From contig CM055911.1 in the NCBI GenBank assembly GCA_029582155.1, positions 22,068,014-22,132,013 on the forward strand: DNA of 64,000 bases, read 5' to 3'. A program made the position numbers and the translations under genes. Positions 2,041 through 60,834 of the stretch are shown in pieces; position 1 is the first letter of the stretch; each line of letters starts with the position of its first letter. The DNA is from Panopea generosa. Its lineage: Eukaryota > Mollusca > Bivalvia > Adapedonta > Hiatellidae. The notes under the pieces were generated by a model. That model saw nothing but the letters and a program-made list of their open reading frames with translations, made no database searches and had not been told where the DNA came from.

Positions 2041-3453
2041 ACTATTTTTACTTCTGGTGCTTGTTCTGAATGAAGTTGTCCAGCTTCCTTCTTCTAAGAG
2101 GCATTTAACTTTATTGACTAGGCTACTTCCCAGTACTGTCTTAGTTATTAATTTTGCAAAGTTGTTATTGTTGACGAATTTCGCTTATACATGTATCAAA
2201 AATTCGCAAAACTATCAACTCGCACAAATTATCACAAAAAGCCCGTATTATAAATGCAATACGCTGTTGTGAAATTCTATTTTTAGATTGAATCTACCGT
2301 ATCATGGGTGTTTTGTAGTTCAATAAACTTTGGACAATGAAAGCACCAGTCCCCTATATAAATCCTCCACTTACTAGGTATGAAATAACTAGATAAATAT
2401 GTTATCATATTAAAAACACCCCTAAAGAATAGAATGACGTAGTTTTACAATAGCAAGTTAGATTATTAGTATTTCTTTGTTTTCAGGTGAACGTCACTTT
2501 TGAATAAACGGCGTCACTCGTAACTGTTTATTTTACTATCTGAATTTACTACCCCATTGACGAATAAAAAATAAACAATATATCAACCTAGTTTTAATTA
2601 AAGGATTATATCCGTCAATAATTCTGCACAAAAATAATTCTACGCGAAAATTTGGTAACGCGAAACATTATTTACGTAGTATGCAATTCCAATAAACGGT
2701 CGTGAAATGCATAAAAGCACATCTTGTATGGAGCTCAGTTATTTTTACGCTTTTCGGCAAATATATTACGTTTAAACAACAAATTCGTAGTTTCTATATT
2801 CCTGATATTTATGTATTATTATTCTGTTAGACCATTATTCTACAATGTAGTAACGCAGCTTGTGTTTTGTATATAATAATTTATTAACTTTATTACAGAC
2901 GACGCCATGACAATTTCGAATGTTTACTACGAGTATAGCAGCTTTTTTTCTTATCAGAAAACAATCAAGTTCTTAATTCGTATTAAATTAAAATGCATTC
3001 TAAACATTCGGAATACTTTGGCTGATGACATTTGTTAAATTGTGCCGCTTGATGTAATGACATTGTGCTGGGTGAAAGAATATAAGTGAATTAAACCATA
3101 GCGGTAATCAATTTAAGAGTATTTTAAGTTATTACATAAATTGAGCTGTTTATTCCACGCACACACTGTTGTTATATGTATTGTTTTTCTATTCCGTTGC
3201 ACATCTTATTCAGTGAAGTTGCATTTCCTTGTCGTATTTGGCTCTAATAGCCAAAAAAACGAAGACATGCGTTTGATTTTCATCTAAATCTCTAAACAAA
3301 CGCCATGTTATAGAAATTGATTTTCAACCATGTTGTTTACAATTGATATTGTTTATACGTCTCAATACACTGTTATGCCTTATACATTTCTTATTTCTTA
3401 AGACTGTAACATGTTTCTTGCACTAATAAAATCCTTAATAATCTGGTTAGAAC
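2041..3453. other. AT-rich stretch without recognisable gene
   Basis: About 1.4 kb of AT-rich single-copy-looking DNA. The 71-codon frame at 2,057-2,272 has no recognisable motif. I see no domain, RNA gene, tandem array or terminal repeat. Confidence 0.6.
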
Positions 3454-3830
3454 TATTTTCAAAATGGTATATTATAGGGACTGTGGTTTCTTGCTGCAGA
3501 TTACTAGAGAAAAATCTATTAGAGCACATAATGCAATAACACTCACTAATGTAATAATAATCTTTATAGGATATTAACAGATATATGTATTTATGTGCAT
3601 TTGAGGACTTCTTTTAAAATAAACTTAGTGGTACCACTGCACTGTTTTTAAAAATTACAAGCTGGTCAACACACAAGTTATTGTGCCTTTTCATGTGCAC
3701 ATACATTCCTGCTATGGAATATACATTAAATACTTTTCTTTGTGGATTTTATTACCATGAACATCACAGACCTTATTTTATACAGAACAAAAAACAAAAT
3801 CCAACTATGTTGGGAGACTCATAACGTATA
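3454..3830 (+). repeat. Dispersed repeat, copy 1 (inverted partner at 60.8-61.2 kb)
   Basis: This stretch aligns by eye, with many small differences, to the reverse complement of about 60,835-61,205. Shared landmarks in the same order include TTTCAAAATGG, TGTGGTTTCTT.CTGCAG, CTTTATAGGAT, GAGGAC..CTTTT, CCACTGCAC / TCACTGCAC, ACATTCCTGCTATG and AACAAAAT.CAACT.TGTTG. It is therefore an interspersed repeat about 370 bp long rather than unique DNA. No coding domain, terminal inverted repeat or target duplication could be identified, so the family is unknown. The divergence suggests an old family. Confidence 0.6.
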
Positions 3831-15503: not shown

Positions 15504-16932
15504 ATTCTCATTCGAAGTTAATAATCCCTTGATAGAATACTGAATACAAGCTGTTTCATACTTTTAGGAGACAAATTCTTTTTGCTGAATGCTATGCAAA
15601 CAAAATGTGTTGCAGGTTTGATTTTTAGTCAATTCAGTTTGAAATTAAATGCACTTTGAAATTCATTATTATTTGTTATACATAATATTCAATCGGGTAA
15701 TTCTACGTTGCTTATCGGTCAACGCACCTATGTACTTTAAATTTACATAACAATATGTGTTTTGTAATTTTAATTTTTAGACATAACAATCTACAATGTA
15801 CATTTTTGGTTTGAAATGACGATATTGTAAATCTCACTATAATCTGCGTATAGGTTAAAGTTATACGTAGAAAATTCTACGTTACTTTTAGTCGTCTAAG
15901 ATGTTGGTCTTCTTTTTTATTCCTGGAGCGATTTCGTTGGCTGAGTTAATAGGTCAACATCTTCTGAAGGTCATACCATTCTATGTAAAATGGAATGTTT
16001 TTTGTGTGTAAAATATGAGCGAATTCAATGGCTGTGAGTGTAGGTCAACATCTAAAAAGTATTGAAAATCATTGATTAAAGAAATAATTGAAAAAAATAA
16101 ATATATACATATGTCCCTAGGAAGAGAGGGTAGTCGATTGATAGATTTATTCGTGAATATATATGTCATGGAATACAAACAATTATCGTAGGTAAATATC
16201 ACAAAATTACAAGTATTGAACCACAGTATTACATACTTTTCATAATTGTCAATGATAGTCTATTCCTGTTACTATAAGGTACATATATTTGAGTCATATA
16301 TATTTCACAGGATAAGCCATTAAGTTTTAGAACTTATTTCCCTTATGAAAACAAATGTCAAGGTCTCAAAGTACAGGTCGTAGAACCTTTATGGACCTAA
16401 TATAACAGGTAAGAGCTATACATTATGTAACTTAAAACAACAAGATGACTACTCTGACACGTTTGTAGTTCATTTTATATTTTTAATTTCCTAATAACAT
16501 TTATGTTATTTCTTATTATCATAGAATATATAAGATACTTATATTTAAATTAGTTATCAAATATAGACTTAAATGATGACATACATAGCACAGAACATTT
16601 CTTGAATACTTAGAAGTATTAAAATAATTGACAGTATTGAGAAATAAATCAACTTCTTGTTCTGTACATTTCATCTCAATGAGTTGCATTCTAACTTCTT
16701 TTTTAAAAGCAATTTTGTTTTCATTTCTTTTCTTGGAAGACTGCTCCAGTCACGAATAGCGTGATAAAAGAAGGTATTTGACAAATCAAATGGCAAATCA
16801 ACCAAACTACAAATCACATAGACGATAATCATTGTACAATACCTACACTTAACATGACACAGAGGGTCAACACCTTGAACGGTTAACCATAGTTATCAAA
16901 GCTTAAGATAATGCAAATGTAAGGAATGTATT

Positions 16933-18504
16933 AGTAGTATTATAAGAGGGAAAATAGACCTCTTTTCTGCCACATTTTTGGGGCAAATACCACATTTTGT
17001 GGGCAAACCGAATACGAAGAAAACCGATAATCGCCGAAGACGAAAAAACGCGGTATATCAGTTATAGTTATCACAAACGATCTTAAACGGAAACGGCCGA
17101 GCGAGAATCTTCTTTTATATCACTTTACTTTTCTTTCATTTGATTAGCCATTAGGTCGTTAGTGCGTATTTAAATAAAAAAGAGGAACAGTTGCGAAGTT
17201 GTTTAATTTTATAAATATTTTCTAAACATGGCACAAAAACGAACGAACGAGTGCACGAGCTCAGTTTTTAGAAAAATGCTGAAAATTTCAGAGAACGTTG
17301 AATAAGAGGATGAAAAAACTGTGTAAATGATTTTAAAATGCTATTAAATGCCTTAATTTAATGAAGCTTCATTACAGTTAAACTCTTTTAACGGCGTAAC
17401 AATAATAAATAGATGAAGTTGGGAATATATGACGAAATTAACTTGAAGAGTAATCGTCGAAGTAAATTTTGTGGCTAAACTTATAGCCTACATAAATAAT
17501 GGGTATACATATACCAATTTGTTTATACTGAAAGTATCATAGAGATCAGTTTGCTTAAGGCAAACATGTGTATAAGACAACAGATCGGGGTATTCAATGA
17601 AGAAATATAAGCGCACTGATGATATTTCAACCAGTATGTTATAGGTAATTTGTCAACATTGAGGATTTAGTTTTAACTCCTCATTAAAATGAGTTAACTC
17701 TACACTTCTAATACATAGACTTTAGAAACAAGGAGCCAACAAAAAGTGGTTGAAGAGTTACAAAATATAACACATTATTTTAAACTTATTTGATAACTTT
17801 AAATAGCGTTACTAAAACGAAATGTATGCAACCAACAAAATAAAATGTGATGTTCACATTATATGTCCATATAAAAAGTTCGCGATAATTCGGAGTATAC
17901 TAGTATGTAACACTCATGTCTTTTCAATTTTATTTTGCGTGCCTCCTCAAACCTCACCTAGGATTTAGTTAACTCCTCATTAAAATGAGTTAACTCTACA
18001 CTTCTAAAACATATACTTTAGAAACAATGAGCCAACAAAAAGTGGTTGAAGAGTTACAAAACGTAACATATTATTACAAACTTATTTGATAACATTAAAT
18101 AGCGTTACTAAAGCGGAATGTATGCAACCAACAAAATAAAATGTGATGTTCTCATTATATGTCCATATAAAAAGTTCGCAGTAACTCGGAGTATACTAAT
18201 ATGTAACACTTATGTCTTTTAAATTTAACTCTTGCGAGCCTCCTCAACCTAACCGAGGGTTTAGGTTAACTCCTTTTTTAAATGAGTTAACTCCTCCCGG
18301 GTCATGCCAATACTTTATATATATATAAGGATTTAATTAAAAGTGAACAAATCTTTCAGTAGTTTGCTGTCGCCGAGGATGTTCGCCTGTGATCTTTGTA
18401 AAAAGGAGTATAAACGTTAAAGATAATATGCTTCGGCACAAGAAAATAATACACGGAGACGATCATAGTTCCGAGGAAGAGCTGGAGAAAGAAGACCTTA
18501 CCAA
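16933..18504 (+). repeat. Left arm (terminal inverted repeat) of the Polinton-type palindrome
   Basis: The arm pairs with 18,751-20,307. From the tip inward it contains a GC-richer end segment (about 16,933-17,170), a middle of low complexity, and a direct repeat with units starting near 17,663, 17,961 and, in shortened form, 18,257. It ends with the beginning of a zinc-finger frame. Each direct-repeat unit opens with a short palindrome, AACTC(C)TCATTAAAATGAG followed by TTAACTC. Such long inverted repeats are within the range known for Polintons. Confidence 0.8.
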
Positions 18505-18750
18505 CGAATCTAATACCGACGATTCAGATATGGAATCAGACTCGGATGAAAAGGAAGAAACAATAGACCCTTGGTATGGCATGGTTGATTATGCATTAAA
18601 ATTGCTTCAGCCCGAATTCGACAAAATAGCATCAGATTTTGTGAACAACGATGAACTGAATGAAAAGCAAGCAAGAAAAAAGGCATTCAACGAACTATTG
18701 CCGAAATACAGAAAGCTTCTTATCGATAAATATTTATTCAGGGTTTTATG
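18379..18750 (+). pseudogene. C2H2 zinc-finger frame carried by the Polinton-type fossil
   Basis: A frame opening with MFACDLCKKEYK contains one C2H2 finger (C-x2-C-x12-H-x4-H, ending HKKIIH), then an acidic stretch rich in Asp, Glu and Ser, then a segment beginning DPWYGMVDYALKLLQPEFDK that continues to LLPKYRKLLIDKYL. The same opening part appears on the opposite strand in the right arm. Small proteins with one finger, an acidic linker and such a helical segment occur, as I remember them, in several aquatic invertebrate genomes, often in mobile-element settings, but I cannot name a function. The copy is broken in a few places and is treated as a relic. Confidence 0.55.
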
Positions 18751-20307
18751 TCGGTAAGTTCTTCTTTCTCCAGCTCTTCCTCGGAACTATCGTCTCCGTG
18801 TATTATTTTCTTGTGCCGAAGCATATCATCTTTACCTTTATACTCCTTTTTACAAAGATCACAGGCGAACATCCTCGGCGACAATAAACTACTGAATGCT
18901 TTGTTCACTTTTAATTTATTCCTTATATATATATAAAGTATTGGCATGACCAGGGAGGAGTTAACTCATTTAAAAAAGGAGTTAACCTAAATCCTCGGTG
19001 AGGTGAGGAGGCACGCAAGAGCTAAATTTAAAAGACATGAGTGTTACATACTAGTATACTCCGAGTTACTGCGAACTTTTTATATGGACATATAATGTGA
19101 ACATCACATTTTATTTTGTTGGTTGCATACATTTCGCTTAAGTAACGCTATTAAGTTTAAAATAATATGTTACGTTTTGTAACTCTTCAACCACTTTTTG
19201 TTGGCTCCTTGTTTCTAATGTATATGTATTAGAAGTGTAGAGTTAACTCATTTTAATGAGGAGTTAACTAAATTCTCGGTGAGGTTTGAAGAGGCACGCA
19301 AGAGTAAAATTGAAAAGACATGAGTGTTACATACTAGTATACTCCGAGTTATCGCGAACCTTTTATATGGACATATAATGTGAACATCACATTTTATTAT
19401 GTTGGTTGCATACATTCCGCTTTAGTAACGCTATTTAATGTTATCAAATAAGTTTAAAATAATGTGTTATATTTTGTAACTCTTCAACCACTTTTTGTTG
19501 GCTCCTTGTTTCTAAAGTTTATGTATTAGAAGTGTAAAGTTAACTCATTTTAATGAGGTGTTAAAACTAAATCCTCAATGTTGACAAATTACCTATAACA
19601 TACTGGTTGAAATATCATCAGTGCGCTTATATTTCTTTATTAAATACCCCGATCTGTTGTCTTATACACATGTTTGCCTTAAGCAAACTGATCTATACCA
19701 TACTTTCAGTATATACAAATTGGTATATGTATTCCCATTATTTATGTAGGCTATAAGTTTAGCCACAAAATTTACTTCGACGATTACTCTTCAAGGTAAT
19801 TTCGTCATATATTCCCAACTTCATCTATTTATTATTGTTACGCCGTTAAAAGAGTTTAACTGTAATGAAGCTTCATTGAATTAAGGCAATCATTTAATAG
19901 CATTTTAAAATCATTTACACAGTTTTTTCATCCTCTTATTCAACGTTCTCTGAAATTTTCAGCATTTTTCTAAAAACTGAGCTCGTGCACTCGTTCGTTC
20001 GTTTTTGTGCCATGTTTAGAAAATATTTATAAAATTAAACAACTTCACAACTGTTCCTCTTTCTTTATTTAAATACGCACTAACGACCTAATGACTGATC
20101 AAATGAAAGAAAAGTAAAGTGAAATAAAAGAAGATACTCGCTCGGCCGTTTCCGTTTAAGATCGTTTGTGATAACTATAACTAATATACCACGTTCGTTC
20201 GTCTTCGGCGATTATCGGTTTTCTTCGTATTAGGTTTGCCCACAAAATATGGTATTTGCCCCATAAATGTGGCAGAAAAGAGGTCTATTTTTTCCTAAAA
20301 TACTACT
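18751..20307 (-). repeat. Right arm (terminal inverted repeat) of the Polinton-type palindrome
   Basis: This is the reverse complement of the left arm. It contains the opening of the same zinc-finger frame on the minus strand (start at about 18,873), the mirrored direct-repeat units of about 298 bp, and the AGTAGTATT tip at its outer end. The unpaired centre between the arms is about 18,505-18,750. Confidence 0.8.
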
Positions 20308-20313
20308 TGTATT

Positions 20314-25744: not shown

Positions 25745-25868
25745 ATTGGTCTATTTATATCTTATGACAACATTACATATGCTAAAACTCGATTTGCTAT
25801 AATCCATGAAAACAGAAAGACTTAACTATCCTCTTATACGTAACGAGTTACTATCCTTTGCCAAAATA
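25745..25868 (+). repeat. Left inverted terminal repeat of the DIRS fossil
   Basis: It starts ATTGGTCTATTTATATCTTA, followed by the phrase GACAACATTAC, and ends with TATCCTTTGCCAAAATAC. The inner 60 bp, from GAAAACAGAAAGACTTAACT to CCTTTGCCAAAATAC, match the complement of the right repeat almost perfectly. The outer half is more diverged, as is usual where the two DIRS ends differ. Confidence 0.85.
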
Positions 25869-25880
25869 CGCGCATGCGCG
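25869..25880. promoter_or_regulatory. NRF-1-like palindrome just inside the DIRS left repeat
   Basis: CGCGCATGCGCG contains the NRF-1 core GCGCATGCGC. It sits directly after the left inverted terminal repeat and about 380 bp before the first Gag-like frame, where a retrotransposon promoter would be expected. In this AT-rich window such a CpG-rich dodecamer stands out. A role in driving the element is inference. Confidence 0.4.
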
Positions 25881-26257
25881 AAAGTAACTTCCTCTTCTGT
25901 TTTCGTGACCTCGTGAGAGGTAGTTAATTCGAATTCACTCGTAAAAATTGGTAATTTTCCACGGTTTCTTCGTTATATAGTTGCGTTTAATTGTTTTATT
26001 AAGTTGCACATTCATTAGTTTGTAGTTGTGTTACTTCTTTTCAGCGAATAAATTCGCTTTACAGTTTTATTTCTCAGTTTTTTTTTGGAAGAATTTCACG
26101 GTTAAATTATTAAAAGGTAAAATAGTCGACGAGTTTCTTCGCCATTTAACTGTTTTTTCAAATAATATTTGTAAACTAATCGGCGAAATTGCTCGCCAAT
26201 TTTGTTTTATATTTCAGGATATTTGTACAACCTGCATTTTGCATATATTTGTACAAA

Positions 26258-27858
26258 ATGTCCGAACATAGCATGTATAGTGTTGGGAATCCCTCAGATC
26301 CCAAGGGCCTTCCCATGGAGCAATGTCTCTTGAAGGCACCGTTGGTGTTAGAGCTACACCCTTCGTTAGACCTTCGACCTCCGGGTCTGTCTACAGGGAG
26401 TCTCCAAGGGCTAGGGCTAGTACTGCAACCCAGAGAGAAACGGATAGAAGGAGTCTTTCCAGGAGCTCCTCCAGACCCGCCAGCTATCACCGTCCTAGCA
26501 GCGCACAGCGGCACAAAGATAGGAGACACAACAGGCGGTCGAGAGATACTTCCCGTGAGAAGGGAAGGAAAAGTAGAAGTAGAAAAGGTATAGTTTCTTG
26601 TTCTTCTTCGAGTTTTGACTTTTCGGGTTTCTCTTCCCCTTCTTTTTCCAGGGATTCCAGGGGCAGATCTAGACATAGGAGTAGGGATCATGATATTCTC
26701 GACAAGATTTCAGCGGCGGTCAATTCTCTATCCAGTTCACATCGTCGAGGTCATAAACGTGCAAGGAATGCGAGATCTAGATCTCCAGTACATTCTCCCT
26801 CTACTAGGTCAAACTTTTCTAGGGTTGCTCCTCCTTCCATTGACAATGAGGACATTTTGGTTGAGGGTTTGGAATCACACTTGCACCGATACTCAGAGAT
26901 GATTTTTCTTCTTAGAGAGAGATTGGTCCCAGAACTTTGCCCCACGGTAGTTTCTACACCCTCTACTGTTCAGGGTACCTCAGCCTTAGATTTTTTTAAG
27001 ACTGATACTCCGCCTTACTCTAACATTTCTTACCTCAAAGTAGTCAGGTAACAACGGTTACAGGAGAACCGAGAGGGGAGGAGATGGTCCCATATGGCCC
27101 TCTTTCTCACTTTCCTAAGGCGCTTACGAAAGACAGGTTGAGCTCGAATTTAAAGAATTTTATCAGACGGCATAGGAAATTCTACGTTCCGCAGGACCCT
27201 TTTTTTCCATTGGATTCCCCTGTTACGGATCCTTCAGTGAATGAACTTTTGAAACCAGGCTTATCTAAGTTTTCTTCTTTTGCAATTACTCCGCAATTAC
27301 TTCTTTAGATTCGTTGGCTCGCTTAGGAGTTCAGGTCAATTCTCACTCTGATCTATTTCTATGTGGTATCTTGTCTATTCTGCCAGACCCTAACCCTTCA
27401 CCTGAAGCTCTTCTCGAGCTCCAGAAATACCTCCAGTCAACAGCTAGGGCCAACGCCAATATGATGGAGGTTTTGTCAAGCTTTCACAATCCCTAACTTT
27501 AGTGAGTCGGGATTCTCTTTTGGAGCTAAACCCACAGCTGGTTTCTAGTCTGAGGGTTGTTCCCTTTAACTCTCCTACACTTCTTGAACCTAATTTCCAG
27601 GAAGTGGTCAAGATTCATAGAGAAGAGATTAAGAACTCCTCTTTTCAGCGGTTAGCCATGGCCAAGCTTCATACTAGACCTCCATTACGATTTCCACCTA
27701 AAGTTCCTCAAGTTACAGTCAGTAAGGCTCCAGTAGTTAGGTCTAGAGCCCCCAGATTTCCTCAGACTTCTTCTTCCCGGGTTACTTCTTACCAGAAAGG
27801 AAGTAAGTCTAACAGAGACAGGGGCAGGGGCAGAGGAAGTAGAGCGCTTGCCCCATAG
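26258..27858 (+). pseudogene. Gag-like region of the DIRS fossil
   Basis: The region opens with MSEHSMYSVGNPSDPKGLP and continues into a segment dominated by Arg and Ser (for example SRSRKG, RRSRDTSREKGR), as in the basic N-terminal parts of DIRS ORF1 proteins. It ends with a Gly/Arg-rich tail just before the RT region. Long frames are present in more than one reading frame and the copy is broken in a few places. Assignment rests on its position before the RT and on composition, since Gag of DIRS elements has no strong motif. Confidence 0.6.
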
Positions 27859-28353
27859 GGGTGCCCGCTCCGGGTCTTTACAGAATTGCCGGGTTCTTCC
27901 AACCTAAATTGGAATATCCCAAGGCAAGACATTCCCACAGGAGGCAGACTTTCAGCCTTCTCAGAGGCCTGGGAAAAAATCGCAGTCCCTTGGACACTGT
28001 CAGTGATCCGGGGAGGGTATCTCATTCCTTTCGGGGTCAATCCTCCAACGGTTTCATTTCCCCAAAGATTCTTGAAAAATCTACGGTATCCTTCAAAGCA
28101 GGAGATTCTCGACACAGAAGTAAAGAATCTTCTGTCTCTTGCTGCTATCGAGCCGGTACTCCCCTCCTTTCACAAGAAGAGGTTCTACAGTCGTCTTTTT
28201 GAAGTTCCCAAAAGCTCGGGAGGATGGAGAACCATCATCGACCTTACTCACCTGAACAAGTTTCTTTCCACACCCCACTTCAAAATGTAGACCCTCGACT
28301 CCATTTGTATAGAACTTCAAAAGAATGAGTGGGTTACTTCTCTGGATCTAAAG

Positions 28354-28808
28354 GTCTCACTGAACAATTACCTCCCTTACATGACGGTAGCAAGATTATT
28401 ACGCCCAAGAAATTAGAGCTGTGTAAAGCGGTTGGGTAATTTTTTTTTTAAAAATGCATAACATGTCATATTTCTTTGTGCATATGGGAACATTGGAACA
28501 TTTTCATGATTTCTGCAAAGTTTTGGTGACCCTGGGAACTGTTTGATGATGCTATAACAGTTTAAAGATGCGTAGTGATACACTGCAACAAATGGGCAGA
28601 ATTGTCAAAAATGAAGGGGTGCCATCAAACCATCGAAATTGTGAAAAAGCAATCTGGTCAACCCCATGTTTTTTTCTGCATATTTGGACCAACAGAGGAC
28701 TATCTATGGGAATAAGGCACTTTTAGAACCATTGGTAATGTATCCAGTGTTCCAGAAGTGCATGTCTCTATATGTAGAACAGTACAAAATTAATTGGTGT
28801 GTGAGACG
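28354..28808. repeat. Left terminal direct repeat of the nested element
   Basis: 455 bp, starting GTCTCACTGAAC and ending GGTGTGTGAGACG. The first seven bases and their complement near the end form a short inverted repeat. An incidental open frame begins near 28,666 in both copies. The bases directly inside this copy are TTCAAG. Confidence 0.85.
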
Positions 28809-30979
28809 TTCAAGAACCAGATCATTTTCGGTAGACGCTGAAAGGAAACTGCATCTTTGTGATTCAGATTTACTTTCTTGTTCAAAATATGTCACTTTCT
28901 ATGGGAAATACTGTATTTGAAACCTCTAAATGGAAAAATAAGTGTATTTTTATGAAAAACGGATGACTTTGAGTGAAATAGAGAAGTGTCACACAGGCAA
29001 AACCAAACTTGAAGCTAAAACAGTAAAGCAATTAGGGCAATGAGACTGAGCAGCTGAAAATTTGTCATGGAAATGTTGGAATCAGGATTTATTCAATTCA
29101 ATGGAAGGAACACAAAGTGAGATCATCTACTTAACTGAAAAAGAAATGATCATGTATGCAAATATGCTTTGCTGCATCATGTGATAAGACTTGATTTTAG
29201 CCATCTGTCTCAAAATCCTGGCTAAAATGAATAGAAGTTTGCACTTAAAAACACTTGAAAGTCACACAGAGACAGTGATGCTAATATATCACAACAAAAG
29301 CATGTCTAGAGCATTCACTGCATCCAGATTTCATAATTCATGTAAGTTAAACCATCTTTTTGTGTTAGAAACTCATTATTTATGTATAATTCATACCCCA
29401 CCCACATAAAAATGGTAACACTTGTCGCGATACTGTTTCCACTCTTTAGCGCATGCTTTTTGACAATACGGTTGGTCGCGTATGAGCAATATTGTTTTTA
29501 TGTCGCTGTTTATCAATTAATATTATATTGATCATGAATTATGGAGAAATTTCCTGTTTCATTATTTTGTCATTGATATTTGTTATCAACAGCTCTGTAT
29601 CCAGTTTTCGATAACCGACCGCCAAACTGTCACGTTTCATTTTAATGGTATGGCGTATGACTGCCATTTTTGTTTTACTGTCATTTTTTTCTCCTCATTG
29701 TTGATATTTATGCGGCTGGGTCTGGCTTATACACAGTATTTACCTACTCTTGGACATTCAGTTAAATAGTAAAATGCGACATCTTTGAAATGACGCGAAA
29801 CAGATTCGCCTAATAATTTCTCAGCGTTTAGTTAACCTGTGCTTGAAACTTTTGTACCATCATCTGATTTCTTTCTGTTGTTCTTCTTACTTTTCTTTCA
29901 AATAAAAATACATGATGCTTGCTAAAGAATATAGATTTTGCTTATTGAAGACGATGTTTTTTAACTGTCTGTTATTGAATGTGTACAATATTTTTCTCCA
30001 CATTCAACAGTATAGCATTCTCCAATATGATAATTTCTAATTTTTATATAATTATTGCAACAACTCTATTTTAACTGCCCATTTTTTTATGCCAGTTTTG
30101 GAAAATCTGTAAAGTAACGAGTCATCTCGCGACAAGTATTTCTTATCGCGATATTCTTTGGTATATTTATTTCAAACTAATTTGTCGTAAAGAGATGCGC
30201 TTTAGCAAACCGTCTTTTTGCAATGAGCTTATCGGTCCAGCCAAATATGCTGTATCCATATTTTGTCTCATTTTCATTCATCGTTTCATTTTCTTGCTTT
30301 AAAGTGACTTTCATGCACACTTTACATTTATTTGCTATTTTTATTGATAAAATAAACAAAATAGTATTGGAATTTAATATATGCCTAATAGATACCTCAA
30401 TTGGTAAGCGATATATTCATAGTTGATAATGAATCTAATGCATGTACACAAGTATGTTATTCATTCATGTATTGATAAAGGGGGCATGGTTAGTGTCAGT
30501 GACATGCAAACTATTGCTGGGCACCTTCAAACATTAATATTTGTTTGTTATAGATGTAAAAAAAGTCAAATATATAGTTTTGCAACAAAACAGAGCATTA
30601 TTTGAAGCAAAAACAACTATTTATCCATATATGGTCATGTATTTTGACACTTAAGTTATGTAATGTTGCATATACAATAAAATGAATATGCAGTTAGATA
30701 GATACACTATAGGAGGCAATACAAGGACATTTTCAAAGTATTTATTTTTCTAGAATTATTTTTAATTAGGTACAATGGCTAAAAATTTTTGGCAGTTTTC
30801 CCTATTTTCGAGTCGTCCGAAACTGATTTATGCATGTGTGACTGCCATCTTATTTTGGTGCATGAATTCGAAAACAGTTACGTGATGAATTCAAAAGGCT
30901 TATTTATATATTTAGAAATGGTAAAGGTTTGTTCGACAAAAATTTCAGTCACATGTCATGACAATTTCTACTCTTCAAG

Positions 30980-31433
30980 GTCTCACTGAACAATTACCTC
31001 CCTTACATGACGGTAGCAAGATTATTACGCCCAAGAAATTAGAGCTGTGTAAAGCGGTTGGGTAATTTATTTTTTAAAAATGCATAAAATGTCATATTTC
31101 TTTGTGCATATGGGAACATTGGAACATTTTCATGATTTCTGCAAAGTTTTGGTGACCCTGGGAACTGTTTGATGATGCTATAACAGTTTAAAGATGCGTA
31201 GTGATACACTGCAACAAATTGGCAGAATTGTCAAAAATGAAGGGTGCCATCAAACCATCGAAATTGTGAAAAAGCAACCTGGTCAACCCCATGTTTTTTT
31301 CTGCATATTTGGACCAACAGAGGACTATCTATGGGAATAAGGCACTTTTAGAACCATTGGTAATGTATCCAGTGTTCCAGAAGTGCATGTCTCTATATGT
31401 AGAACAGTACAAAATTAATTGGTGTGTGAGACG
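30980..31433. repeat. Right terminal direct repeat of the nested element
   Basis: 454 bp, about 99 percent identical to the left copy. The six bases directly before it are TTCAAG, the same hexamer that follows the left copy. Confidence 0.85.
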
Positions 31434-31962
31434 TAAAGAATGCTTACTTTCACATTCTGATACATCCAGATTCAAGGCGATACCTTCGCTTCCTTTGGCA
31501 AGGTTCAACCTATCAATTTCGAGCTCTTCCCTTCGGTCGTGCACTAGCACCGTACGTTTTCACTCGAATAGTAAAGTGCGTATGTTCCCATGTGCCTTTT
31601 ATGGGTATTCGTCTCCATACTTACCTGGACGACTGGCTCCAACCCGCCAACTCCATGGACTTGGCTCTGCAACACTCAAGACGTCTTATAGATCTTGTGT
31701 TTGAGCTGGGCTTCATTTCCCAACTGGGACAAGTCAGAATTGGTGCCCTGCCAAATATTTACATTCCCAGGAGCACGTTTCCTACTACATGAAGCCTTAT
31801 TGGGTCCTTCTCTAGAGAGAGAGTCAGATTATTTCAGGTGAATCTGGAACATCTTTTTTCAGTTCCCTCTGCCTCAGCCAGGGAACTTCATTCTCTACTG
31901 AGTCAGATGGAATCTATATCCAAACTCCTACCACAGGACAGAGTACACAAACGTCCTCTGAA

Positions 31963-32560
31963 GTGGGCAATCAAGGACGATGGAATCAAGTTTTCCAACT
32001 CTGGGATTACCAGATAAATTTAGGCTCTTGGTTCCGGAAAGTCACTCAACAATGGAGGGACACAGACTTTCTCATGTCCTTGGTTCCACTCCACCCCGCA
32101 AGCCCGGATCTTCATCTTTTCATAGATGCCAGTCTCAAGGGATGGGGAGCTCACCTGGGAGATCTTCACGCGGCAGGGTCTTGGCCCAATCATTTATTGA
32201 CGAGCCATATAAACGTATTGGATATGAGGGAAATTTTTCTGGCCCTACAGTCCTTTCTAGATACAGTTCGAGGACACTCGGCCATGCTAGCCACGGACAA
32301 CACAACCGTAGCAGCATATGTGAACAAAGAGGTGTGTGTGTGGGGGGGGGGATGGGAGGGGGGGGGGGGCTCATTCTCAAGAGCTCTCGAACTTGACAAC
32401 GGAGACTCTGACTTGGTACTCCCAATTAGGAATCTTTATCAGAGCCAGGGATATTCCAGGCAAGCTGAATGTTCTGGCAGATTCCCTTTCCAGGAATACC
32501 TAGATAGTTCACACAAAATGGATGTTGCATTGATCAACACTAGCTCAGGTGTTCCAACAT
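31963..32560 (+). pseudogene. RNase H region of the DIRS fossil
   Basis: The segment LHLFIDASLKGWGAHLG supplies the first catalytic Asp (about 32,125). DMREIFLAL supplies the Glu (about 32,230), and LATDNTTVAAYVNK supplies a further Asp (about 32,296), in the spacing usual for DIRS and retroviral-type RNase H. The domain follows the RT directly, as in all DIRS elements, and would remove RNA from the RNA-DNA hybrid. The copy is not intact. Confidence 0.8.
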
Positions 32561-32859
32561 TGGGATACATCTCACATAGATCTCTTTGCTACTCGGTTGA
32601 ACAACCAACTACCAACTTTTGTGTCACCAGTTCCAGATCCCCTGGCATGGGCAATAGATGCTCTGTCAATTCCGTGGCAGGGTCTGTTCGCATATGCATT
32701 CCCTCCACTTCTATCTCGGGTACTTCTGAAAGCACAGAGAGAAGACTGCTTGCTGATTTTGATAACACCATTTTGGACAGGACACCCATGGTTTCCAACA
32801 CTGCTATCACTATTAGTGGCTCCTCCAATAGTTCTTCCTCTCAGACGAGACCTTCTGTG

Positions 32860-33990
32860 TTAACCTCTATCTCGTCTAGATCACGCCAGGCCAGAAGTGT
32901 TTCATCTTCACGCTTGTCTCTTATTAAACAACATCTCGAAGCAGAAGGATTTTCTACTCGAGTTGCCAACAGAGTCTGTACTTCTAGAAGATCTTCCACA
33001 AATGCACTTTATGAGTACAGATGGAAATGTTGGGTGGATTGGTGTGGGTCAAGGTCACTGGATCCACATAATCCAACTTTGAGTTCTCTATCAGAGTTTC
33101 TTGTGTCACTTTTCGAAGATAAATGTCTTTCACCATCTTCAGTTAAAGGTTATCGTTCGGCCATTTCGGTAACACTTAAGCAGGTTTCAGGCAAGGATTT
33201 TTCTGATAGTCCACTACTCTCTAACATAATTAGGAGCATAGAATTAGAGAGACCAGCATCTTCTCAGGTCACTCCTAAATGGGACATTCTTCTGGTCTTG
33301 AAGGCCATTTCAGGTCCTCCATTCGAATCACTTATTTCTTGTTCGAGAAGGGAATTAACTTTAAAAACTACTTTCCTTCTAACTCTAGCTTCGGGGCGTA
33401 GACGTAGTGAGCTACATGCTTTATTAGGAACTGACGATTCCATTTACTTTGCAGTAGATGGCTCTTCCATTACATTACATTTCTTTCCGGGGTTTCTCGC
33501 CAAGAATCAACCTCCTTTGGTTGCTAGTCAGTCACTGGTTATCCCAGCTCTACCTATAGACAACCCAGATAACGAGTTTCTTCCTCTGTGTTATGTCCAG
33601 TGAGAAAAATCTACTTGGATCGCTCTAAGGCATGACGCAAGAACAGGAAACGGCTTTTTGTTCCTTATCATCCAGAGGCCATAAGAGAAATTTCTCTTTC
33701 TTCCATTTCAAGATGGATCGTAGAGACAATTAAGTCCTCCTATGAGGTGGAAGGAGTAGAGCTTCCAAGATCCAACCCAACAGCCCATGAAGTTAGAGCT
33801 TCTTGTCTTCTTCTCTTGCTTTGCTGAATTCTATTCCTCTGGATCGTATTCTAAGAGCATGTTACTGGAGTTCCCATAACTCTTTTACTAGGTTCTATCT
33901 CAGAGATTGCTCTCTTTTTAATAATGATTTACTGACTTTAGGCCCTATTGTGGCAGCTCAGTCCGCGATCAGGGTTGAACCTCGAGTTTG
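32860..33990 (+). pseudogene. Tyrosine recombinase region of the DIRS fossil
   Basis: The N-terminal SAM-like part includes YRWKCWVDWCGSRSLDP and SSVKGYRSAISVTLKQ. The catalytic part shows LASGRRRSELHAL with the first conserved Arg (about 33,397), the HEVRA box (His-x-x-Arg, about 33,786-33,797) and FYLRDC with the candidate nucleophile Tyr (about 33,896). These are the R...HxxR...Y landmarks of tyrosine recombinases, which integrate DIRS circles. Position after RNase H agrees with the DIRS1 layout. The copy is not intact. Confidence 0.82.
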
Positions 33991-34668
33991 AGTTTGTTTA
34001 ACAAACTTTACAATGTTAGACTAGGTAGTTTACCTCCTATTGGTGGTTGTTTTTATGTATCAGGATTCCTGATCACATAAATTAATTTTATATTTTTATA
34101 CTTTTATTTTGGATCTTACTGACATTGTTTAATCTCAGTAATTGAGGTGATGTATCTCTAACATAAGATATCAATTTATAGATACATGGGTCACCTACTC
34201 GACTTCTGAAATTCTGATTTTGTCGATTTATGTTAGAAAATACAATATATATATATATTACAAAAAATATTAATTTTTTGTTGACCTTTTGACTGACGTG
34301 TCTCCGGGTATCTTTGACTAGAGTTGCCTCAGTCTATACATGCAGAGTAGTTTTATTCTGCTACTTTATAATATGGATTGAATTACAAGCTGTACTTGTT
34401 GGGAGGATGGTTTTCTACAGCTACACATCTTTCTTCCACTACTCTTTCTTTCCACTCCGGAGATGTTACAGCCCTTACAGACGGTTCTGCAACGTATGTA
34501 AGTTTTGTAGCACTATTATAGTTTATTCAGTTTAGTTCTATGTTAAAGTTCATAACTTATTTTACATGACATATCTTAGTTTTTTAAGATAATTTTCTTA
34601 CAGGCTCCACTGTTCCCTTTTATTTTGACTTATCTATCCTCCCCTCCCCAGGTTTTTATGTTAAAGTC

Positions 34669-34764
34669 AGCATATGTAATGTTGTCGTAAGATATAAATA
34701 GACCAATATAAAAAAATTGAATTCATTTTATTATTTGTCTATAGTATACTTACGACAACATTAC
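34669..34764. repeat. Internal complementary region of the DIRS fossil
   Basis: The first part, AGCATATGTAATGTTGTCGT up to TAAATAGACCAATAT, is complementary to the outer edge of the left terminal repeat. The second part, from TTATTTGTCTATAGTATACT to ACGACAACATTAC, is complementary to the outer edge of the right one. It thus carries the joined ends of the circular form in inverse orientation, the template used to restore the termini. The joint falls at the ATT shared by both ends. Confidence 0.85.
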
Positions 34765-34801
34765 AAACCCTCCCCTCCTCAGAAGAGGATATTGCTTTCG
34801 G

Positions 34802-34948
34802 GTATTTTGGCAAAGGATAGTAACTCGTTACGTATAAGAGGATAGTTAAGTCTTTCTGTTTTCGTGGATATTTGCAAATCGGGTATTAGTAATGTTGTCG
34901 TAAGTATACTATAGACGAATAGTAAAATTGACTAAAATTTTCTATATT
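34802..34948 (-). repeat. Right inverted terminal repeat of the DIRS fossil
   Basis: The inner part, GTATTTTGGCAAAGGATAGT through CTTTCTGTTTTCGTGGAT, is complementary to the left repeat. The outer part, GTAATGTTGTCGTAAGTATA then CTATAGACGAATAGTAAAAT, matches the internal complementary region up to CTATATT, which fixes the right end at about 34,948. Confidence 0.82.
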
Positions 34949-35869: not shown

Positions 35870-37735
35870 TCGCGAGATGCACGATTGTGATTGGAGGCCG
35901 ATGCTACGATAGCACAATTGTGACTGGAAGGTGAAACAACGACGGCACGATTGTGACTGGAAGGTGATGCTACAACAAGTACGAGTGTGACCGGATGGTG
36001 ATGCCTACGACAAGCACGATTGTGACTGGAAAGTAATTCTACGACAAGTACGATAGTAACCAGTAAATGATGCTCCGACAAATACGAGTGTGACTTGATT
36101 GTGATACTACGACAGCACGATTGTGACTGGAAAAGATGCTACGACAAGTACGATTGTGACTGGATGGTGATGCTATGACAGCACGATTGTGACTGGAAGG
36201 TGATGCTACATATATGATAGCACGATTGTGACTGGAAGGTGGTGCTACGACAGCACGATTGTGACAGGAAGGTGGTGCTACGACAGAACGATTGTGACAG
36301 GAAGGTGGTGGTACGACAGCACGATTGTGACAGGAAGGTGGTGCTACGACAGAACGATTGTGACAGAAACATGATGCTACGACAGCACGATTGTGACAGG
36401 AAGGTGATGCTACGACAACATGAGTGTGACAGGAAGATGAGCTACGATAGCACGATTGTGACTGGAGGGTGATGCTACATGTATGATAGCACGATTGTGA
36501 CAGGAAGGTGGTGCTACGACAGCACGATTGAGACAGGAAGGTAGTGGTACGACAGCAGGATTGTGATAGGAAGGTGATTCTATGACTGCACAATTGTGAC
36601 AGCAAGGTGATGCTACGACAGCACGATTATGACAGGAAGATGATTCAACCACAGCACGATTGAAAAAAGAAGATGATGCTACGACAACATGAGTGTGACA
36701 GGAAGGTGATGCTACGACAGCATGATTGTGACAGGAAGGTGATGCTACGACAGCACCATTGTGACAGGAAGGTGATGCTACCACAGCACGATTGTGACAG
36801 CAAGGTGATATTATGACAGCACGATTGTGACAGAAGGTGGTGCTACGACAGCACGATTGTGACAGGAAGGTGATGCTACGACAGCACGATTGTGACAGGA
36901 AGGTGATGCTACCACAGCACGATTGTGACAGCAAGGTGATATTATGACAGCACGATTGTGACAGAAGGTGGTGCTACGACAGCACTATTGTAACAAGAAG
37001 GTGATGCTACGACAGCAAGATTGTAACAGGAAGTCGATGCTACGACAGCACGATTGTGAAAGGAAGGTGGTGCTACGACAGCACGATTGTGACAGGAAGG
37101 TGATGCTACGCAGAACGATTGTGACAGGAAGGTGATGCTACGACAGCACGATTGTGACAGGAAGGTGATGCTACCACAGCACGATTGTGACAGCAAGGTG
37201 ATATTATGACAGCACGATTGTGACAGGAAGGTGGTGCTACGACAGCACGATTGTAACAAGAAGGTGATGATGCTACGACAGCAAGATTGTGACAGGAAGT
37301 CGATGCTACGACAGCACGATTGTGAAAGGAAGGTGGTGCTACGACAGCACGACTGTGACAGGAAGGTGATTCTACGACAGCACGATTGTGATGGAAGGTG
37401 ATACTACGACAGCACGATTGTGACAGGAAGGTGATGTTACGACAGCACGATTGTGACAGCAAGGTGATGCTACGGCAGCACGATTGTAACAGGAAGTCGA
37501 TGCTACGACAGCACGATTGTAACAGGAAGGTGATGCTACGACAGCACGATTGTGACAGGAAGGTGATGCTACGACAGCACGATTGTGACAGGAAGGTGAT
37601 GCTACGACAGCACGATTAAGACAGGAAGGTGGTGCTACGACAGCACGATTGTGACAGGAAGGTGATGCTACGACAGCACGATTGTGACAGGAAGGTGATG
37701 CTACGACAGCACGATTGTGGTAGTACGACAGCACG
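35870..37735. repeat. 33-bp minisatellite, about 56 copies
   Basis: The unit is GACAGCACGATTGTGACAGG plus AAGGTGATGCTAC, 33 bp. The left part (to about 36,480) is more diverged and the right part nearly uniform, suggesting growth toward the right. Blocks of several units are repeated: the series containing GATATTATGACAGCACGATT occurs near 36,800, 36,930 and 37,200. Since 33 is a multiple of three, long frames are open on both strands (to 188 codons, an 11-residue repeat such as CHNRAVVASPS). I do not consider these genes. Confidence 0.95.
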
Positions 37736-37744
37736 ATGTATGCA

Positions 37745-38190
37745 TTGTACATGTATCATTAAGCATATGTTATTTGAATCTGTATTGCTAAATATATTTC
37801 AAAGAGACAACCCAATGAGTCCAATATATCAGGATATAATGTTAAAAAAATAGTGATAATTACATCATATAATTATATGCTTAAAGTTATTTTATCATGA
37901 TGCGTTGTGTTAAAACACATCTTTTTTCTGCTTATATTATATGGATTTTGCGGTCAGATTGCAGTCGTGTTATAAATTATCGTTACGTTCTAACGTTTAT
38001 ATATTTAAAAGGTATGGTATTTTTCAGACCATTATAGATGAATCATAATTTCTAAGAACATCGCTTGAATTCGATATGTTAGTTATAATAACTTGTCTAT
38101 AAAAATCGCCTGACACTTTTACTCAATCTTATTATTTCAGGTTCCTTGGAACAAAGACGCTCTAAGATGTGGTAAAGACAGACTCGCTTA
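37745..38190 (+). repeat. Duplicated block A, copy 2, left part
   Basis: It aligns with about 21,110-21,640. Homology begins directly after the 33-bp array and stops around CAGACTCGCTTACAG. Differences are many, so the duplication is old. Confidence 0.65.
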
Positions 38191-59545: not shown

Positions 59546-60091
59546 TGTCCAGTGTACATACATTCGTATGTACAATATATCATAACAGCACGATTATAAA
59601 TCATCAAGAAGGGAATTTTGCACAACCAATAACTCCGACAAGTTGAGACACTTCATAAGCATAAAAAACATTTATAGACATCATATAATATTACTGTTCT
59701 AATAAATAAATCTGCACAATTCACACATGTTATTGATCACAGTATACGTCTTTTCAGTCACGATAATGTATGTTAATAAGCATTAGTGTTTCAACATAGA
59801 TGAATATTGAAGTATCATGTGGCAAGACAAGCTTCCCGCTTAATAAAGTTTTTTCTGACACCTGACCGATTACCCACATAACCGCGACAAGCAGTCAGCT
59901 TTTCTATTTGTTTTTAATCTTAAATGCGATATGGACGGATGAATCCTCATGTGTTTATTAACAAAATAGTTGTATATACAAGTTCAATATAATTTAGTCA
60001 ATATTTAATTTTCGGCCATCTGGCCTTTATCAAAAATTGAAAATTTAACATTACAGCTAGGTAACGTCCATTTTATTATCAATTGTTTTTC
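59546..60091. other. AT-rich spacer
   Basis: About 545 bp. It contains the phrase CGGCCATCTGGCCTTTATC near 60,014 but no recognised element or gene. Confidence 0.5.
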
Positions 60092-60235
60092 TATAATAAT
60101 GACGTGACGTCATATCCTGTATGGACAACGTCAAAAGACGTAACGTCATTTCACGCACGGAAATAAAGCCGCGAGAAATGATGTTACGTCTTTTGACGTT
60201 GTCTATCCAGGATATGACGTAACGCCATCATTATA
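60092..60235. mobile_element. 144-bp hairpin MITE
   Basis: Two arms of about 61 bp (60,092-60,152 and 60,175-60,235) are complementary with only a handful of mismatches, separated by a 22-base loop (ACGCACGGAAATAAAGCCGC plus GA). The outer ends read TATAATAATGACG and CATCATTATA, so a TA or TATA target may be included in the ends. Each arm contains GACGT words, including TGACGTCA in the left arm. No coding capacity exists. It is a foldback-type MITE of unknown superfamily. Confidence 0.8.
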
Positions 60236-60834
60236 GACAACTTGAAATATGTTGATAATGGAGTCCTATTCAAAAAAGGAAAATGTTATATTAGCAATAA
60301 AGCTGATTCGAAATATATCTTATGTATATGTACACCTATAACAAACCGTATCTCGTGTCGACTACTAAATATGTTAACTCTAACATGTGGTTAGAACCGT
60401 TTATCAAAGAGAGTTGTGTATTGCCTGCTGTTCAACACCTTATTAAATTATTTTAAAAAATGTTCAGTTTGCCTGTCATGTCTGCTGACTATCACAGAAG
60501 GGCAAAGAAATCAATATAAGATAAACTCTCGACAACAGCAACACAAACAAAACAAAATCTAATTTAAAGTCAACTGTATGTGTTTCTTATAGGAATTGAT
60601 ATGATTACACCAGAACGTTAAGGTTGAACTCATGTAATAGAAAATGACAACTGTTTCAAGGGAAGACTTCAATAACAATTGAGTTAATGCTTGCAAACCA
60701 AATTAGAAACTGTTATGTCATTTCAACAGTTTTCTTATATTTATAGTTCAAGATAATAAGCTAAGCAATTCAAAATCTTATGCTATCAGACTGAATATAT
60801 TAAATATTACCGTTTCTTATGGCAAACAGTTTAA
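60236..60834. other. AT-rich spacer
   Basis: About 600 bp with no recognised gene, array or terminal repeat. Confidence 0.5.

Follow-up and report, generated by a model that had tools for sequence, protein, structure and literature searches.

Introduction

The commonest end motif of vertebrate Mavericks (Polintons) is (AGT)2//(ACT)2, and intact elements are bounded by 6-bp target-site duplications (PMC8097293, which, like the other sources cited here, was accessible in part and is relied on to that extent). The repeats at the ends are held in the same account to serve jumping-back in protein-primed replication, a role that it words as an expectation ('would be expected'; PMC8097293). Here we describe an element of 3375 bp in a 64,000-nucleotide stretch of the genome of the bivalve Panopea generosa (assembly GCA_029582155.1, contig CM055911.1, positions 22,068,014 to 22,132,013 of the forward strand; the whole stretch is called the window and is numbered from its first letter), which resembles a Polinton in its end motif, its perfect 6-bp duplication and its inverted ends (PMC8097293). 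It differs in size, intact vertebrate elements measuring 12.7-24.6 kb, and in its arms of 1.57 kb, which are longer than the terminal repeats of 46-1447 bp given for vertebrate Mavericks in the accessible part of PMC8097293; moreover, unlike a Polinton, it is almost wholly palindromic, has no pPolB match among those listed, and carries the remnant of a C2H2 zinc-finger gene instead. We read this element as a copy of a palindromic, non-autonomous Polinton/Maverick satellite family that would have arisen by copy-back replication and been mobilized in trans by Polinton enzymes, a reading to which we assign a probability of roughly 60%.

The topology has a described counterpart in the snap-back genomes of adeno-associated virus (AAV), in which one moiety of the genome is joined head to head with its own copy, in symmetric and in loop-bearing asymmetric forms, and which replicate with Rep and helper functions (PMC8235507). 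AAV replicates by rolling hairpin (PMC11575299), whereas protein priming is proposed for the family described here. In addition, the AAV snap-back genomes are packaged, whereas the window family is integrated, inherited and multi-copy. Palindromic deletion genomes of adenovirus would be a closer analogue than the AAV snap-back forms, though the literature search listed no paper devoted to them by title.

Two kinds of transposable element also invite comparison. Miniature inverted-repeat transposable elements (MITEs) are usually a few hundred bp long (under ~1 kb), non-coding, and derived from cut-and-paste transposons. The window element shares with them that it is non-autonomous, consists mostly of terminal inverted repeats and, in our interpretation, is moved in trans. 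An earlier reading of the sequence (the original prediction) had called it MITE-like, a label that suits the shortest copies in the genome, L039 (0.49 kb) and L040 (0.66 kb; L numbers are our handles for loci), but not the larger, gene-bearing ones; among the elements read only those two are of MITE size, and the window element has 3375 bp and a gene remnant. Foldback and Galileo elements likewise have very long, internally repetitive inverted repeats, and are set apart by their P-superfamily transposase (PMC3573991), a distinction drawn from their description rather than from sequence comparison.

Results

Structure of the window element

The element occupies positions 16933-20307 of the window and forms a near-perfect palindrome. 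It is flanked by the target-site duplication TGTATT, the left copy at 16927-16932 and the right copy at 20308-20313 matching at all six positions. Its left end begins with AGTAGT, (AGT)2, at 16933-16938 on the plus strand, and its right end closes with ACTACT, (ACT)2, at 20302-20307, the same motif on the minus strand; this is the commonest published Maverick/Polinton end motif (PMC8097293). The tip AGTAGTATT starts at 16933 and its reverse complement ends at 20307. Self-comparison of the window delimited a left arm of 1573 bp (16933-18505, plus strand) and a right arm of 1558 bp (18750-20307, minus strand) that are 96.0% identical, with 1490 of 1552 aligned bases shared (96.01%) and differences amounting to 62 substitutions (32 transitions, 30 transversions) and 8 gap events. 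By judgement rather than formal calculation, this length and identity are far beyond chance. Between the arms lies a single-copy centre of 244 bp (18506-18749), the loop of the hairpin. The palindrome, its tips, its TGTATT duplication and its arms of about 1.57 kb, all reported in the original prediction, are thus confirmed, and the assignment of its ends and 6-bp duplication to the Polinton type agrees with the published Maverick rule of motif, 6-bp duplication and terminal inverted repeats, as far as the accessible part of PMC8097293 sets it out. Single-strand folding of the tip gave a z of -1.9, which is not telling.

The same prediction had described an element of almost nothing but terminal inverted repeats, and this did not hold, the arms containing tandem sub-repeats and the start of a gene as well. 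In the left arm two sub-repeats of ~296 bp, 93% alike, span 17673-18226 (plus strand), with a partial third extending to 18317, and matching sub-repeats occupy 19004-19564 in the right arm (minus strand). A C2H2 zinc-finger gene begins at the inner end of both arms: the left remnant, at 18379-18757 on the plus strand, has a break in its reading frame near codon 13 and is truncated at the inner junction, and the right remnant, at 18750-18872 on the minus strand, retains the first ~41 codons only. This remnant is the sole open frame of at least 100 amino acids in the element, which has no open reading frame of 150 amino acids or more. Genes for integrase, ATPase, protease and capsid were absent from the frames of the element, no genome-wide profile search having been aimed at them.

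A multi-copy family with 6-bp duplications

We searched the 1.47-Gb assembly (39 contigs) with 300 bp of the tip and obtained at least 42 matches (the best 40 of 262 candidates scored). There were 53 exact occurrences of the 16-bp tip AGTAGTATARTAGGAG, against none for the reversed control. Inward-facing tip pairs, spaced 0.5-15 kb, numbered at least 12; the comparison of pairs and distances drew on 82 tip entries from two lists, in which some tips stand twice. Seven elements of this family, which we call family A, were read from tip to tip, namely the window element (3.4 kb), L021 (6.9 kb), L033 (5.8 kb), L038 (5.1 kb), L039, L040 and L042 (4.3 kb), and all seven have inverted arms, interrupted in the case of L021. 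Length, inner junction and duplication differ from one of these palindromes to the next.

The duplications of the seven match at 6/6 in five cases and at 5/6, with one mismatch, in two. When lengths from 4 to 9 were tried on them, 6/6 or 5/6 matches appeared only at a length of 6, and no full match at 7, 8 or 9. Eleven elements in total, including some described below, were tabulated: the duplication is 6/6 in eight (the window element, L021, L033, L036, L039, L042, L046 and a pPolB element on C6), 5/6 in L038 and L040, and 2/6 in L044. As a control, the left and right flanks of different elements were compared, and these were alike at 5/6 or better in 1 of 110 cross pairs and at 6/6 in none. 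The window element moved as a unit, as the original prediction proposed, and its reading there as a non-autonomous element is likewise supported.

The tip search had originally been suggested as a way of distinguishing a mobile family, with several copies of the same 3.4-kb palindrome and different duplications, from a one-off collapse, with a single copy beside longer Polintons sharing its tip. A multi-copy family with varied duplications did emerge, but no second 3.4-kb palindrome was found among the elements read. Nor was the second pattern seen; instead there were palindromes of 0.49-6.9 kb, a 15-kb element and one-ended copies.

Several further loci belong with these. L036 (358-7524) is a palindrome of 7167 bp with arms of 3.37 kb at 96% identity, AGTAGT tips and a 6/6 duplication, TTGCGC; its tip is a variant, AGTAGTAGATAACG, the last ~204 bp are doubled at its right end, and a third AGTAGT stands in its centre at 3786. 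In L044 (131-6840) the inner unit is that of family A, and the outer ~1.2 kb and the tips (AGTAGTAAGGTG) are different; from this one locus, terminal segments look exchangeable. Two regions stand outside the duplication table: L043, which has inverted arms but no left tip, and L045, which has a left tip and no right end in the stretch read. A further element with family-A tips, at C14:64593064-64608150 (L052, L053), measures 15.1 kb, and the ~1.4 kb read per side, 0.9-2.4 kb from the tips, form inverted arms 93-95% alike; its inner sequence recurs in the one-ended regions L023, L024 and L025. It was considered as a candidate for the full Polinton parent; in the 3 kb read of this element the longest frame has 101 amino acids, and neither a pPolB nor a C2H2 match lies there among the matches listed.

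Some surroundings and contents of the copies were noted along the way. L026 and L038 are embedded in minisatellite arrays, with units of 75 bp and 36 bp, which may reflect a target preference. At the inner end of the unit in L037 (~3285-3358) a stretch looks tRNA-like by eye and is perhaps a short interspersed nuclear element; ARAGORN finds no tRNA in L037. The long overlapping frames of L035 and L024 were considered as genes and set aside, as they lie mostly within tandem-repeat arrays and have no Pfam match above cut-off.

Palindrome topology, shared centre and kinship of the arms

With L022 as ruler for unit coordinates, the recurrent form of the family is unit 1 to b followed by the reverse of 1 to c, with b and c varying between copies. 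For the window element b and c are 1824 and 1592, with 1 bp of overlap where the centre joins the right half; the 244-bp centre itself extends the left half of the unit (unit ~1592-1824). The corresponding values are 331 and 163 for L039 (2 bp overlap), ~3242 and 1941 for L038 (8 bp gap), and ~3006 and ~2083 for L042 (32 bp overlap). In L033 the left half ends within the sub-repeats and the right half runs from 3285 to 1. The window element (1-1824, 1592-1) has the form that defines a snap-back genome, in which one end is fused head to head with a copy of itself and an asymmetric loop is left between them. The overlaps of 1-2 bp at the junctions of the window element and L039 fit a template switch, and fit end joining as well.

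Blocks from the centre of L036 recur in L021, L022, L028 (with its near-duplicate L030), L033 and L038, which makes a single, nearly complete palindrome of ~7 kb the apparent ancestor of several copies. For the window copy the best reading is such a ~7-kb palindrome that has lost its middle. We also compared the arms with one another in trees built from arms covering at least 85% of a segment (20, 19, 20 and 15 rows), and the two arms of one element were mutual nearest relatives in 18 of 21 comparisons.

The C2H2 zinc-finger gene

The gene that is broken in the window is open elsewhere. L036 has it in each arm, where it runs to 182 codons and is open on the left but interrupted by a single stop on the right. 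Its protein has at least 154 matches in the assembly (the best 150 of 468 candidates scored), and 18 of these are free of stops for 185 residues or more. Open frames also occur in a second set of homologues, which are 36-41% identical, and two loci of this set were read. One of them, L046, is a 3.8-kb palindrome with tips AGTAGTGGTG and a 6/6 duplication, CCCGGT, and its gene is open over 223 codons and 40% identical over 177 amino acids; in the other, L047, the same gene is open. Two diverged lineages, each with a gene-bearing palindromic member, suggest that the gene matters to them.

The identity of the protein was probed against several databases. The 22 matches in the PDB are to zinc-finger proteins and fall mostly on residues 14-40, and Pfam placed a zinc finger in the family protein below cut-off. 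For the window remnant Pfam gave nothing above cut-off, the best sub-threshold hit being RRN3 (E 0.005). The best PHROGs hit had an E of 0.02, and a scan of IMG/VR with the C2H2 protein returned 27 pattern matches and no relative.

Polinton-type elements in the same genome

The pPolB profile (PF03175) has at least 122 matches in the assembly, in at least 65 loci (the best 91 of 190 candidates scored), none of those listed being at the window locus. One of the loci, C6:12941104-12954272, is a 13.2-kb element with tips AGTAGTGAACGA, which begin with AGTAGT, and a 6/6 duplication, ATCATA. Both of its outer flanks were read; its inverted ends share 96.9% of 898 aligned bp, and each half has pPolB matches that point outward. 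Given these ends and the paired pPolB matches, a pPolB element in this genome obeys the same end rule as the window element and is, in part at least, duplicated in inverted orientation. A search with its end sequence gave at least 47 matches (the best 40 of 114 candidates scored); several of them form close pairs on opposite strands, 0.5-6 kb apart. Many of these matches (L048 1905-2801 and relatives) begin at query position 30, so that the outermost ~29 bp seem to have been replaced in those relatives. A second inverted pPolB pair, on C4, was considered as a palindrome and rejected, its outer flanks not being homologous to each other.

The family is bigger than the original prediction had noted, being gene-bearing, palindromic in its complete copies, and accompanied by a diverged relative and by a pPolB element of similar architecture.

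Other features of the window

A reverse-transcriptase fragment (RVT_1, E 9e-8) lies at 31430-31792 of the window and is flanked by a 96-nt inverted repeat, 25782-25877 and 34794-34889 (91%); the whole span, 25782-34889, we take to be a candidate DIRS-like retroelement. Repeated-peptide open frames on the minus strand at 36039-37755 form a coding-looking minisatellite, and from ~39600 a long satellite array of 55/61-bp units extends, with families of 91-92 overlapping 300-nt copies. A hairpin at 60087-60240, with 70-nt arms 89% complementary and a 14-nt loop, is possibly a small inverted-repeat element.

Discussion

A copy-back origin would account for this architecture as follows. The unit of the family is an arm of ~3.4 kb comprising tip, tandem sub-repeats, an inward-reading C2H2 gene and a TC-rich inner end; two such arms face each other head to head across a short centre that they share, and the 7.2-kb L036 is built in this way. 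Each end would be a Polinton-type origin, at which the (AGT)2 repeat would allow protein-primed replication to jump back. In the course of strand displacement the polymerase would switch to the complementary strand and copy back to the end from which it started, leaving a looped hairpin whose two origin ends are identical, and replication through this hairpin would convert it to a double-stranded palindrome. Such a palindrome would depend on a full Polinton for pPolB and integrase only, and with these could multiply and make new insertions flanked by 6-bp duplications. The shorter forms would result from deletions or additional switches across the centre, and the window copy, in which the unit stops at ~1824 in the left half and at ~1592 in the right half, may represent either a deletion across the centre or a fresh template switch.

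A number of observations weigh against this reading. In 14 of the 20 regions fetched (L022-L032, L034, L035 and L037; up to 9.6 kb read) one family-A end only was seen, and four of the six palindromic regions among the 20 had been chosen as close tip pairs; given that short elements are also easier to catch, complete palindromes may be over-represented. The outermost ~50 bp of L036 are unlike family A, and in L044, with arms of 2.9 kb at 97.6%, the outer ends are unlike family A and the duplication is absent (2/6). The pairing of arms within elements has its exceptions: the inner 208 bp of the window element are 96.6% identical to L038 and 94.7% between its own arms, the tips of L021 are 89.8% identical to each other and 95.3% to L022, and the right tip of L039 ties with L033. 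With regard to the gene, neither an inverted repeat nor an exact tip is present in the 7 kb of L047, and the ratio of nonsynonymous to synonymous substitution rates (dN/dS) for the family-A C2H2 frame is 0.74, the wrong frames giving 0.85 and 0.67 (18 of 20 extracted copies, two near-duplicates dropped; copies below 90% coverage were left out), values near enough to one another that purifying selection within family A is not shown.

The connection to Polintons is likewise indirect. The pPolB matches listed, in at least 65 loci, are all more than 30 kb from any family-A tip listed, the nearest being 32.9 kb away, and among the matches listed no pPolB element has family A's own tip. A candidate link at C3:23771475 (L041), where a C2H2 match lies 20 kb from pPolB, was rejected as an internal fragment with no tip in the 4.5 kb read; other distances between C2H2 and pPolB matches were compared by eye only. 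Because no shared full-length parent was found among the matches listed, the link to Polintons rests on the end motif, the duplication length and the similar architecture of the pPolB element.

Finally, the recurrent topology would also be expected if the family had arisen by plain internal deletion of an ordinary Polinton with multi-kb terminal inverted repeats, with neither copy-back nor a palindromic master. Elements with long arms and a large centre do exist in this genome, namely the 15.1-kb element on C14 and the 13.2-kb element on C6 with pPolB in both halves, and the 14 one-ended regions could be long elements of that kind. Against this, the centre common to six loci and the existence of L036 with a duplication of its own point to an ancestor that was already near-palindromic, and no parent combining a Polinton core with the family unit was found among the matches listed. 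We consider internal deletion unlikely, though a serious alternative to copy-back.

Copy-back might instead have occurred many times over, each palindrome arising separately from a full or one-ended Polinton and none descending from a master. The differing inner junctions, the pairing of an element's own two arms in 18 of 21 comparisons, the overlaps of 1-2 bp at the junctions of the window element and L039, and the existence of one-ended copies would all be in keeping with such a history. However, the similarity of arms could also stem from conversion, and the shared centre blocks, together with L036 and its gene in both arms, point to inheritance from an older palindrome; separate origins therefore seem to us improbable.

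We regard it as very improbable that the family is a DNA transposon unrelated to Polintons. Foldback and Galileo elements make target duplications of 7-9 bp, longer than the 6 bp at the window element. Their long arms with tandem sub-repeats do resemble those described here (PMC3573991), and 6-bp duplications are made by IS3EU and GingerRoot elements as well (PMC10045372). However, the ends of IS3EU are TA..TA and those of GingerRoot TA..TA or occasionally TG..CA, in the accessible part of PMC10045372, and those of the window element are AGTAGT..ACTACT, and a pPolB element of the same genome follows the window element's end rule. An assembly or library artefact can be virtually dismissed, for although palindromes are a known product of fold-back reads, such a read would yield identical arms, whereas these arms differ by 4% (the 62 substitutions and 8 gaps given above), the target duplication lies on the outer flanks, and the same architecture recurs elsewhere with other duplications.

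We found no account of non-autonomous or miniature Polintons in the open literature, and among the papers listed none concerned palindromic ones by its title; the search did not extend to Repbase and most subscription papers, so that absence from print is not established.

A copy-back origin with mobilization in trans leaves room for a further and more tentative proposal, which we put forward as possible but doubtful: that these elements form a self-sustaining lineage of palindromic Polinton satellites, hairpin genomes with two identical protein-primed origins and a C2H2 DNA-binding gene of their own in each arm in at least two lineages (the proteins 40% identical), but without the helper's structural and replication genes, which they would have lost. 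If so, their relation to Polintons would be that of virus satellites to viruses, and their zinc-finger protein might act at the repeats in the arms, favouring replication or expression of the satellite or repressing the helper.

Copy-back palindromes are the residue to be expected when protein-primed replication, the presumed mode of Polintons, goes wrong, and the snap-back genomes of AAV are a residue of that sort. If palindromes with Polinton ends lie integrated in a genome that also has a pPolB element with pPolB matches in both halves, they would be a fossil record of protein-primed replication and evidence that a defective Polinton genome can turn into an inherited, mobile family; with a gene conserved in two palindromic lineages, these would count as satellites and not as debris.

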